From Nautiliaceae bacterium (GTDB taxonomy: Bacteria > Campylobacterota > Campylobacteria > Campylobacterales > Nautiliaceae), in assembly GCA_027062625.1 (NCBI GenBank), contig JAMOSZ010000036.1, positions 1 to 39,973 on the forward strand: a DNA stretch of 39,973 nucleotides, written 5' to 3'. Numbering within the stretch: position 1 is the stretch's first letter; each line of letters begins with the position of its first letter. Positions 11,012 to 14,875 of the stretch are shown piece by piece. The translations under genes and the position numbers were made by a program. Below the pieces are notes generated by a model, which searched no databases, was not told the origin of the DNA, and saw only the letters and a program-made list of their open reading frames with translations.

Positions 11012-12106
11012 ATGGATGCTTTTGAATACTCAGAGCTTATAAAAGAGCTTGAAAATAAGCTAAAAAATATAAAATCAATTTTAAAACCCGAGCAGCTTGA
11101 AAAGAAACTTAAAGAGATTGAAGAGATGGAAAATGACCCAAACTTCTGGAATGACCCTAAAAAAAGTGCAAAAATTCAAAAAGAGAAGCAAGCAATTATA
11201 AGAAGGCTTGAAAAGTATAAAAAAGCTCTTCAATCTCTTGAAGATAACAAAGATATGTATGAGCTTGCGAGTTTAGAAGAGGATGAAGAGACATTAAATG
11301 AAGTGTTTAACGATGTGAATGAACTAAAAAAAATAATTAGAGACCTTGAAATTGAAGTAATGCTGAGCGATGAGAATGATGATAAAAACGCAATTATTAC
11401 AATTCATCCAGGAGCTGGTGGGACTGAGTCACATGACTGGGCGAGTATGCTTTATAGAATGTATTTAAGATTTGCAGAGAGAAAAGGGTGGAAAGTAGAA
11501 GTGCTTGATTATCAAGCAGGAGATGAGGCTGGAATAAAAGATGCTACTTTACTTATAAAAGGTGAAAATGCTTATGGATATTTAAAGGTAGAAAATGGGA
11601 TTCATAGGTTAGTTAGAGTATCTCCTTTTGATAGTGCTGGTAGGCGTCATACATCTTTTGCCTCAGTGCAAGTATCTCCGGAGATTGATGATGATATAGA
11701 AATTGAAATTGAGGATAAAGATATTAGAATTGATGTATTTCGTGCAAGTGGGGCTGGTGGACAACATGTCAATAAAACAGAGAGTGCAGTTAGAATTACT
11801 CATATTCCAACTGGAATTGTTGTTTCGTGTCAGCAAGATAGGTCTCAACATAAAAATAAAGAGATGGCTTTTAAGATGTTAAAGTCAAAACTTTATGAAC
11901 TTGAACTTGAAAAAAGAAGAGCAGAAGAAGAAGGTAAACCAAAAGATGAAATGGGATGGGGGCATCAGATTAGAAGTTATGTATTGTTTCCTTATCAGCA
12001 GGTAAAGGATAATAGAAGCAATAAAGCTTATTCAAAGGTTAATGAGATTTTGGATGGGGATTTGGATGAGGTTATTGAGGATGTTTTGATTGCTACTCAA
12101 AAATGA
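11012..12106 (+). CDS. prfB: peptide chain release factor 2
   Basis: 364 residues. Recognises UAA and UGA: the SPF tripeptide is at 204-206 ([10 protein letters not shown]), and the peptidyl-hydrolysis motif GGQ is at 249-251. The N-terminal coiled coil fills residues 5-110. The reading frame is continuous from the ATG, so the programmed +1 frameshift that autoregulates RF2 in many bacteria is absent. A ribosome site AAGGGA precedes the ATG. The gene borders the mobile-element region. Confidence 0.95.
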
Positions 12107-12273
12107 AAAGAGCGTTTTTATCAAAATTCAAAAATAATACTTCCTCTAAATTGATAAATTATAGGGAGATGAATTTTTGACTTGCGTGAGCAAGTAAAAT
12201 ATGTTAAAATTTTCTAAAACTGAATATCGTTAAAACTCAACCATCATAAAGATATCGGCACAAAGCGTATCTT
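12107..12273. other. intergenic region with two inverted repeats, possible insertion-element left end
   Basis: No convincing gene is seen. An imperfect hairpin spans 12128-12180 (TCAAAAAT pairing with ATTTTTGA, then CTTCCT against AGGGAG). A tight hairpin ACTTGC-GTGA-GCAAGT follows at 12180-12195. Either could be the subterminal hairpin of an IS200/IS605-type left end, or a terminator for prfB; the sequence alone does not decide. Confidence 0.35.
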
Positions 12274-12386
12274 CTTCCAAATGGATAGGAAGGAGAGGGG
12301 TTGTGTTTTGTGGAGGTAATACCCACAAATCTTTCCGTAAGGGAAGCTCCACTTATAATGCGTAGCATTTAGGGGGAGAGGTTCAC
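12274..12386 (+). ncRNA. omega-RNA-like module without its own tnpB (upstream copy)
   Basis: Four hairpins in a row: CTTCC/GGAAG (12274-12292), TTTGTGG/CCACAAA (12307-12329), CTTTCC-GTAA-GGGAAG (12331-12346) and ATGC-GTA-GCAT (12358-12368). The last 62 bases (12325-12386) are a close copy of the right end of the tnpB element (13648-13706), with about 8 differences and a 3-base gap. The first two hairpins occupy the same places as hairpins in the right copy but have different stem sequences. I infer a second right end/omega RNA, from an older or non-autonomous copy. Expression is unproven. Confidence 0.45.
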
Positions 12387-12422
12387 ATAAAAAACTTGAT
12401 AAATTTTGCAATTCAGATACAA

Positions 12423-12450
12423 TTTTGTTTGTTATAAATAACAAACAAAA
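12423..12450. repeat. perfect 13-bp inverted repeat before tnpB
   Basis: TTTTGTTTGTTAT and ATAACAAACAAAA are separated by AA. The repeat ends at the first base of the AGGTGG ribosome site of tnpB, so it is either the element's left-end hairpin or a structure limiting tnpB expression. Confidence 0.6.
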
Positions 12451-12461
12451 GGTGGTATATA

Positions 12462-13695
12462 GTGCTTTTAACGACAAACAATAGAGTTAAAACTAAAAAC
12501 AAAGCAAAACTTGTAATATTAAAAGAGCTTACACATAACTCAAAAGACTTATACAATAAAGCACTATATACCATTAGACAATACTTCTTTTCAACAAAAG
12601 AGTATTTATCCTACATTGAAGTCTATAAACTTTTAAAAGCTAAAAATAAAGGACAAAAAACCCATATTCCAAGATATTTGGATAAAGATGGACGTTACAA
12701 AGTAATCTATACAAAAATCCATTTAAAAACAATGGATAACGGATATATCAGACTTGCATTGTCAAAGTATATCAAAGAAAAATTCAAAATTAATTATCTC
12801 TACTTTAAGATACCAAAATATTTCCAAAACAAAGAAATCAAAGAAATCCATATATTGCCATACAAACCGCATTACAAAATATACGTTTGTATATAGTGAC
12901 AAAGATAAAAGTTTCAATCACTATACAACAGACGATATAATGGCAATAGACTTTGGAATAGACAATCTTGCGACCATTGTAACAAGATACGATAGTCCTA
13001 TACTGCTTGATGGTAAGTCCTTGAAATCCAAGAACAGATGTTTCAATAAAAGAATATCTGTTTTACTATCAAGCGTAACAAAAGGCAAAAACCCAAAAGA
13101 GTGGCAAAAAGTAAACTTTAAAAGATTAAATATCTGGTATCAAAGAAGAGAAAACTATATCAAAGACTATCTACACAAAACTGCTACAAAAATAATCAAT
13201 ATTGCAATAGAAAAAAGGATTAAAACTATTGTAATTGGATACAATAAACTTTGGAAAAACAGATGTAATATCGGAAGAAAAAATAACGAAAAATCCCTCT
13301 CAATCCCTCATTCAAAACTGCTTCAATACATCAAATATAAAGCCATTCAACATAAAATAGAGATAATCGAAACGGAGGAAAGCTATACTTCAAAATGCGA
13401 TCTTCTTGCATTAGAAGCTATCCAAAAACACAAAAAAAATCTTGGAAAAAGAGTTAAAAGAGGAATACTTCAATTAAGTATAGGGAAATTAATTAATGCA
13501 GATGTAAACGAGGCATTGAATATATTAAGAAAAAGCGTAGCATGTGATTCTCTTATAGAGATAACAGGTAGAGGGCATTGGCAAATTTCCAAAGGAAATT
13601 TAGGGTTGATGTGGGTTCCAGCCTGTAAAGGGTGCATACATACCTTTACAAACTTTTCCATAAGGGAAACTCCACCTATAATGCGTAGCAGTTAG
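12462..13695 (+). pseudogene. tnpB: tnpB (RNA-guided nuclease of IS200/IS605 type), frameshifted
   Basis: The N-terminal part is open from the GTG at 12462 (AGGTGG upstream) to a stop at 12896. The reading continues one base over: the residues YKIYV run into VYSDKDKSF if one T of the TTT at 12886-12888 is removed. The 3' part keeps all three RuvC acids in AIDFGIDNLAT, IETEESYTSKCD and NADVNEALNILRK. Between KLLK and AKNKG (near 12640) about 30-40 residues that I expect in full-length relatives seem missing, so an internal deletion is likely too. TnpB cuts DNA at a site set by the omega RNA from the element's right end. This copy is probably inactive unless frameshifting rescues it. Confidence 0.8.
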
Positions 13696-13706
13696 GAGAG
13701 ATTCAC
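13583..13706 (+). ncRNA. omega RNA/right end of the tnpB element
   Basis: Overlaps the 3' end of tnpB and continues 11 bases past its stop. Hairpins: AAATTTCC-AAA-GGAAATTT (13583-13601), TGTAAAGG/CCTTTACA (13624-13650), TTTTCC-ATAA-GGGAAA (13654-13669) and TGC-GTA-GCA (13682-13690), then CTCC/GGAG closing the 3' end. In known systems the RNA scaffold ends at the element's right boundary and the following host bases act as guide; here that would start near 13707. The 5' end of the RNA is a guess. Confidence 0.45.
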
Positions 13707-13730: not shown

Positions 13731-14875
13731 AAAGTAGTTTTGGCAAGACTTTTTTCAAAGTGTAACTTGACTTTAATTCCAGTGGATAAAGAGTCAAAAA
13801 AGGTTATCTCTTCTTACAAAGTAGATTTAATTAATCTAAAAAATGCTACCTTAAATCAACTATTGGATACTATTTTTAATACGACACCTCTTTTTTATAA
13901 AAGAGAAGGTAATAAAGTTTTTGTTAGTTTTTATAAAAGTGCAATTTTTAAAATTGATTTTATTCCAAATGTATTTAGCGGCTATGTGAATATGGACTCT
14001 TTTGATAATAGTATTAAGTCAGCTTATAAGAGGGATTTTTGGAGTGAGTTAAAAGAGAATTTAATTCAGATTTTAAAAAATGAAGGAGATAAATATAAAA
14101 AACTAGTTATTGATAAAAGTTCATCGCTTGTTAGCGTAACTGGTAATAAAAATCAATTGCTTGCTGTGAAGGAGTATATTGATAATTTGTTAAAAAGATT
14201 AAAAAGAGAAGTTTTAATTGATGTTAGGATTTATAGTGTAGAGCTTTCTAAGTCTTATCAAAGGGGGATTGATTGGTCAAAATTCTCTTTATTTTTATCA
14301 GATAGTTTAGTTCCTCTTAGAGGCAGATATATTGGGGGGAGTGAGGCTATTTTTAATTCTGCTACTTTTAATGCATCGGCATTTTTGAATTTTTTAGCTC
14401 AAAATGGAAATGTCAATTCAATTTCAAATCCAAAGATAGTAACTTTAAATAATCAAAAATCAATTATAAGTATTGGAGAGACTATTTATTATAAATATGC
14501 TTTAAAAGTTGTAACTGATAATAATGGTAATTCATCTACTGAATATACAATTGGCTCAAAATTTGTTGTGGTTTTACTTGATATTACTCCTTAAATAAGT
14601 GATAATAACGAAGTTATTTTGAGTATAAATCCAAAGTACATTTAAAAAACCAAACTCAAATAAATTCTCAAAGAGATACGTCTCTGGATATTAAGGGGAA
14701 TACTTTAATAACAACTATAAGATTAAAAAATAATAAAACGATTGGTAATCGGGGGTTAATAGCAGATGATAAAACTTTAAAAGTAAATGGAGTGCTGATT
14801 TTAAAAGAAGTTAGCTTAAAAAGAGAGCTTGTTTTTGTAATTACGCCTTATATTAAGATAAAAAGACATCTTTGA
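13731..14875 (+). pseudogene. mshL: MSHA/type IV pilus secretin (MshL-like), broken
   Basis: The longest open piece runs 13740-14594 from a TTG. It shows a secretin N-domain (LKNATLNQLLDTIF...), a long middle domain and the start of the secretin core (VLIDVRIYSVELSKSYQRGIDWS, then SISNPKIVTLNNQKSIISIGETIYYK). An in-frame TAA at 14592 replaces a codon in DITP-x-ISDNNEVILSINPK. Near 14633 the frame slips by -1, after which homology continues through GLIADDKTLKVNGV to ELVFVITPYIK, ending at the TGA 14873-14875. The usual loop before the last strand is shortened. The signal peptide and first part are missing, replaced by the mobile element; an in-frame TAG lies at 13728. The outer-membrane pore cannot be made. 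Confidence 0.8.

Follow-up and report, generated by a model that had tools for sequence, protein, structure and literature searches.

Among the closest described relatives of the locus studied here are the PATEs of Haloquadratum walsbyi, which are transposase-free elements with near-terminal palindromes related to IS605-type elements and a short 5′ target motif (PMC3119063). Both repeat-mediated deletion of the core and insertion into or beside IS605-type elements have been described for PATEs, and one type, HqIRS71, retains a longer terminal segment that includes sequence of the tnpB C-terminus (PMC3119063). This description dates from 2011, before reRNA (PMC3119063). In our literature search no paper on the retention of reRNA in PATEs was found, but subscription literature was thinly covered, so that absence is not implied. 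In the TnpB/reRNA system of ISDra2 the tnpB 3′ end and the right end (RE) of the element give rise to the scaffold, the guide is the flank past the RE, and the target-adjacent motif (TAM) is the 5′ target motif (PMC8612924). A further group, the E-alt TnpBs, has a rearranged RuvC-II glutamate (PMC10711439).

The window analysed here, i.e. the whole stretch of 39,973 nucleotides, is contig C36 of a 1.48 Mb Nautiliaceae bacterium genome in 113 contigs, and its relatives at genus or family level are likewise Nautiliaceae. In the window, prfB ends at 12106 and is followed by two pieces of one IS200/IS605-type family. In other genomes of the genus prfB is followed by different genes and not by an element of this kind (the G006 copy of prfB, which ends at position 1930 of a short locus, was read by similarity search only), and no strain with the exact empty site was found. 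The first piece, 12122-12386, is very probably a non-autonomous miniature IS200/IS605-type element of the PATE kind, lying beside a decayed tnpB-only copy of the same family at 12387-13706. The features are as follows:

12117-12121, + strand: TTTAT target motif and presumed TAM, 5′ of the left end (8/8 left ends, counting this one)
12122-12176, + strand: left end (LE) of the miniature, with a subterminal hairpin at 12140-12168 (84% identity to five LEs)
12177-12205, + strand: promoter-like TTGACT-N17-TATGTT inside the miniature (9/12 match, chance-level scan)
12206-12302, + strand: non-coding interior of the miniature, common to its sister copy on contig C65
12303-12386, + strand: RE with reRNA-like fold and terminus TTCAC (alignment, fold, covariance model); closing helix GTG 12303-12305 / CAC 12384-12386, H1 12307-12329, H2 12331-12346, H3 12347-12378
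12387-12461, + strand: inner left-end sequence and tnpB promoter of a second, LE-truncated copy (aligned to the G005 element and to C71 and others)
12462-13695, + strand: decayed tnpB of the RNA-guided endonuclease TnpB family, E-alt type (89% nucleotide identity to the intact G005 relative)
13577-13610, + strand: 34-nt insertion with the palindrome AAATTTCC/GGAAATTT (13583-13601), outside the shared module
13612-13706, + strand: RE/reRNA region of the decayed copy, terminus TTCAC (alignment, fold); H1 13624-13650, H2 13654-13669, H3 13670-13698

The short unit and the adjoining tnpB copy

A first-pass annotation of this DNA had described a bare guide module from 12274 with no tnpB in front of it. 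The lack of tnpB is supported: no ORF of at least 80 aa lies within 12122-12386, and the interior (12206-12302) has no significant homology to the tnpB of the intact copies examined. The bare module had to be given up, as the unit starts 152 nt earlier, possesses an LE of its own, follows a target motif and exists in a second copy elsewhere. Specifically, 12115-12176 is 84% identical to left ends in contigs C71, C44, C11, C80 and C53, and 12122 is the point where divergence of the flank from C65 begins. The sister copy of the whole unit, at C65:4533-4786, lies beside unrelated genes and is likewise a short unit only between its unrelated flanks; these two, the window and C65, are the dispersed short-form copies. 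They share 62% identity over the LE, where C65 has lost half of the hairpin, 78-93% elsewhere inside (87.5% over 12231-12275), and 38% and 21% in the flanks. As homology to C65 ceases at both boundaries, the left unit has moved as a whole and is not a bare guide module; judged from its sequence, 12122-12386 is a complete IS200/IS605-type element without tnpB, and the left end belongs to it. Since its interior is not recognisably tnpB, the miniature did not arise simply by internal deletion from the copies examined, and its parent may be an unsampled subfamily. The promoter-like site is of chance quality, as the scan found nine sites against 7.9 expected in shuffles; in C65 its -10 is kept and its -35 is not.

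The sequence from 12387, earlier read as a different guide, proved to belong to the adjoining tnpB copy, of which it is the inner left end with the promoter (TTGATA-N16-TACAAT at 12396-12423, 10/12 match); the outer left end of that copy is missing. Any guide made from the left module would be composed of this sequence. The decay of this tnpB, already proposed in the annotation, is confirmed: 96 nt are deleted in frame after 12626, one extra nucleotide at 12883 shifts the frame, and a 34-nt insertion is present that the intact G005 relative and the C89, C58 and C112 copies lack. Though the reading frame is not intact, the catalytic motifs are still readable: IGYNK occupies the position of the canonical glutamate, and EESYTSK follows further on. 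Substitutions relative to the G005 copy fall on codon positions 1/2/3 as 30/29/66, a bias that is, on the face of these counts, a trace of past selection on the TnpB protein. The 96-nt deletion (relative L045) has short direct repeats, AAACT(C/T)TTAAAA, at its sides and looks repeat-mediated. Directly 3′ of the decayed copy lies an MshL/secretin-like gene (13740-14594), which looks like a pseudogene: its start is apparently missing, and a stop at 14592-14594 shortens the frame.

As for the origin of this arrangement, the miniature would have been moved by a Y1 TnpA that acts in trans, recognises the LE and RE hairpins and inserts the element 3′ of TTTAT without target duplication. The left end of the neighbouring tnpB-only copy, now decayed, was probably its insertion site at one time, and recombination between the two left ends would have eliminated one; this would account for the single outer LE that remains and for the abrupt passage from RE to promoter at 12386/12387. 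Nested insertion with LE recombination would thus be the simplest history, reconstructed rather than observed.

Family ends, target site and relatives

Further right ends of the family lie at the starts or ends of contigs C58, C89 and C112; they are identical over the module and each ends in TTCAC, with unrelated sequence after it. The five left ends in C71, C44, C11, C80 and C53 lie at contig ends, are mutually identical and have TTTAT before each, and the same motif precedes the C65 miniature, the C14 element of G005 and the window LE (8/8). An intact copy of the window-type tnpB was not found in the assembly, where a protein search finds only the tnpB of the window; that the element bodies are missing is expected for a collapsed repeat. 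The identical multi-copy ends suggest a tnpB family that was recently active.

The boundaries of full-length copies can be read from an M23 peptidase gene split by one of them, with its halves on C80 (L029) and C112 (L004). When the C80 left flank, TTTAT and the C112 right flank are put together, a single uninterrupted 270-aa frame results, and its Peptidase_M23 domain (residues 166-260) spans the junction at 210. Therefore, both boundaries (after TTTAT and after the terminal TTCAC) are exact for full-length copies and there is no target duplication, a join demonstrated for this full-length copy and not for the miniature. The donor site is TTTAT followed by AGTTGCTATTATC; the sequence just past TTCAC is thus the donor-site sequence adjoining TTTAT, as in the guide/TAM relation of ISDra2.

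A full element in G005 (C14) carries an intact 440-aa TnpB frame between ends of the same kind; the score of this protein exceeds the NCBIfam threshold for guided TnpB, and its RuvC-II glutamate is arranged in the alternative way (IGYNK, EESYTSK). Relatives of the TnpB were not found in viral contigs, nor in plasmids at 60% identity or more. An RE-like module in G005 (C149, L026, minus strand 1609-1495) lies beside 5S rRNA and has TTTAT as its terminus instead of TTCAC, and its closing helix is still possible via G-U pairs.

IS200-type TnpA did not turn up in intact form; in the best candidate (C11) a left end breaks the gene, and the others are partial, in an assembly that breaks at these repeats. 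More specifically, the Y1 (TnpA-type) transposase gene at G000:C11 55797-56126 (L028/L034) is interrupted near its N-terminus by a window-family left end, and it adjoins a left end of another type, that of C48/C163. The latter is a second, unrelated tnpB-less miniature family of IS605 type, with copies at about 1468-1765 of G000 C48 (L031) and about 1580-1310 of G005 C163 (L023, minus strand). It consists of an LE, which resembles that of the window, followed by an end akin to the one in the C57 tnpB copy and by TTCAC; the family has kept the long, guide-RNA-like right end of that C57 element (91% over 106 nt in C48). A single shared TnpA would act in trans on the elements of the window family and of the C48/C163 family.

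Right-end fold and the question of an orphan guide

The annotated pair of near-copy modules at the right ends is real. Identity between 12325-12386 and 13648-13706 amounts to 83% (E = 1.7e-12 in a search of the 1.48 Mb genome), and TTCAC is the terminus of each. The further claim that hairpins with different stems precede them in the same order stood in part. It is true of H1 (TTTGTGG/CCACAAA at 12307-12313/12323-12329 against TGTAAAGG/CCTTTACA at 13624-13631/13643-13650) and fails for CTTCC/GGAAG, the proposed counterpart of which (AAATTTCC/GGAAATTT) lies within the 34-nt insertion. The outer pair of the shared hairpin (H2) is indeed C-G in one window copy and T-A in the other, and the covariation read from such differences is largely borne out by an alignment of seven distinct right ends: those of the left module, C65 and the right module, the C89 type, two from G005, and one from L050 (an Epsilonproteobacteria MAG).

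Four helices are common to the seven, namely H1, H2, H3 and a closing helix between GUG (12303-12305 in the left copy) and the terminal CAC. Paired cells make up 95.0% of 200 cells in 31 pairs (89.9 +/- 1.2 in shuffles), and two-sided changes occur in 10 of the 31 pairs against 4.6 +/- 1.6 in shuffles, a count that 0 of 500 shuffles reach. When the 3′ partners are slid by 1-3 columns, pairing goes down to 41-60%, a comparison biased towards the unslid version, as the structure was derived from the same alignment, and seven related sequences are a small sample. The H1 helices of the left and C65 miniatures are poorly aligned by column, though each copy taken singly folds its H1, more weakly in C65. 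Taken together, the right ends are, as far as alignment and folding can tell, a covarying, reRNA-like scaffold that ends at the RE terminus. The RE of the miniature (12303-12386) scores 100.9 bits with covariance model R1, in whose training set it was included. Searching more copies with a covariance model, as the annotation had proposed, gave modules in the own genome only among 298 genomes at class level, so that wider covariation data are lacking. An Rfam scan of the window placed two tRNAs only above threshold, and Rfam cannot be expected to include every lineage-specific scaffold.

This fold would be the scaffold of the guide RNA of the family's TnpB, kept in the miniature because it overlaps the end needed for transposition and because the copy is young. 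One may instead hold that the two modules serve TnpA as DNA ends and have no other function, the covariation then reflecting recognition of DNA hairpins rather than RNA. H3 would suit such a reading, being a subterminal hairpin with a form in common with the LE hairpin (CTCCCTCTA) and accounting for four of the ten two-sided changes, and it may well be kept for DNA recognition by TnpA. However, H1, H2 and the closing helix are situated 40-80 nt inward, beyond the subterminal end, and yet covary with two such pairs each, while to our knowledge the subterminal hairpin alone suffices for the TnpA substrates of known IS605 elements. We therefore regard DNA ends and nothing else as a distinctly improbable account of the modules.

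Whether the scaffold in the left module also works is a separate matter. The module could work as an orphan guide RNA. It would then have its promoter at 12177-12205, associate with a TnpB supplied by an intact copy elsewhere, and take the bases past 12386 as its guide, with element retention or gene control as its role. The tnpB-less copies possess the fold in full, down to a closing helix for which transposition should have no use; in the left copy this fold is stable (z = -3.0, none of 200 shuffles being as stable); and the LE contains the promoter-like site. TnpB in trans is plausible for the left module, because the identical multi-copy ends point to recent activity of the family. Against this, no intact copy of the window-type tnpB is present in the assembly, and the fold of C65 is weak (z = -0.95). 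Nor did guide matches next to the target motif turn up as the annotation had envisaged: at 0-1 mismatches, TTTAT with a 14-nt guide has no genomic site for the left copy and none except itself for C65. With up to three mismatches, the left guide and TTTAT pattern gives 28 matches against 15 for a reversed control. One candidate, a 25-nt near match of the left 'guide' in C15, was rejected, being AT-rich, mismatched at guide positions 1-2 and with TTTAT two bases out of register. The suggestion that the tnpB-less copies are under selection fared no better, as the divergence between left and C65 fits neutral drift: with mutation simulated from left to C65 at the observed number of changes, 36% of trials are as stable as C65 (4.7% in the reverse direction), so that this pair shows no selection on the fold. 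On balance a working orphan guide seems unlikely.

A related proposal is that miniatures keep a complete scaffold since TnpB from full-length copies, acting in trans, uses it to cut the site left empty, by which the miniature would be retained, with the window/C65 and C48/C163 types as parallel cases. We would give this little credence; if true, two unrelated tnpB-less families in one genus would represent parallel TnpB-based retention. The position of the left module directly behind prfB could also suggest an element-derived regulatory RNA, acting for instance on prfB or on the downstream gene. But the module is absent behind prfB in other genomes of the genus, its C65 sister lies beside unrelated genes, and the downstream secretin-like gene is itself broken, which makes a regulatory role highly improbable. 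The reading of 12122-12386 as an ordinary miniature element is thus preferred, and that of an orphan guide RNA gives way to a transposon history.

Comparison with known systems

Like PATEs, the window unit lacks a transposase gene, has near-terminal palindromes and a short 5′ motif, and is inserted in or beside an IS605-type element. Indeed, the PATE features found in it are the lack of tnpB and transposase genes, homologous ends, the TTTAT motif and dispersed copies. Unlike PATEs, it is bacterial (Campylobacterota), is about 265 bp long, and has a covarying reRNA-like right end. The guide position of the family corresponds to that of ISDra2, being the donor flank next to TTTAT (shown for C80/C112), whereas the motif is TTTAT and not TTGAT, the fold of about 100 nt has a different sequence, the guide is predicted, and the left copy is without tnpB. 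IGYNK and EESYTSK are shared with the E-alt TnpBs, but no CxxC zinc-finger was seen in the window family. Stand-alone omega-RNA loci have been reported for IscB systems, and their expression was measured there; such loci hold a guide scaffold without an adjoining nuclease gene, as the left module does, but the nuclease differs (IscB) and the left module is a putative case.

The window unit therefore appears to be of a described kind, stripped-down tnpB-less IS605 derivatives being already known, and the only part of wider interest would be the retention of a reRNA scaffold in gene-less elements and its possible use in trans. It offers a small and well-bounded case, with one miniature, a known motif and RE boundary, and a close intact TnpB relative, and this case bears on the question of whether IS605 derivatives that lack genes are parasites of TnpB and use it to be retained.
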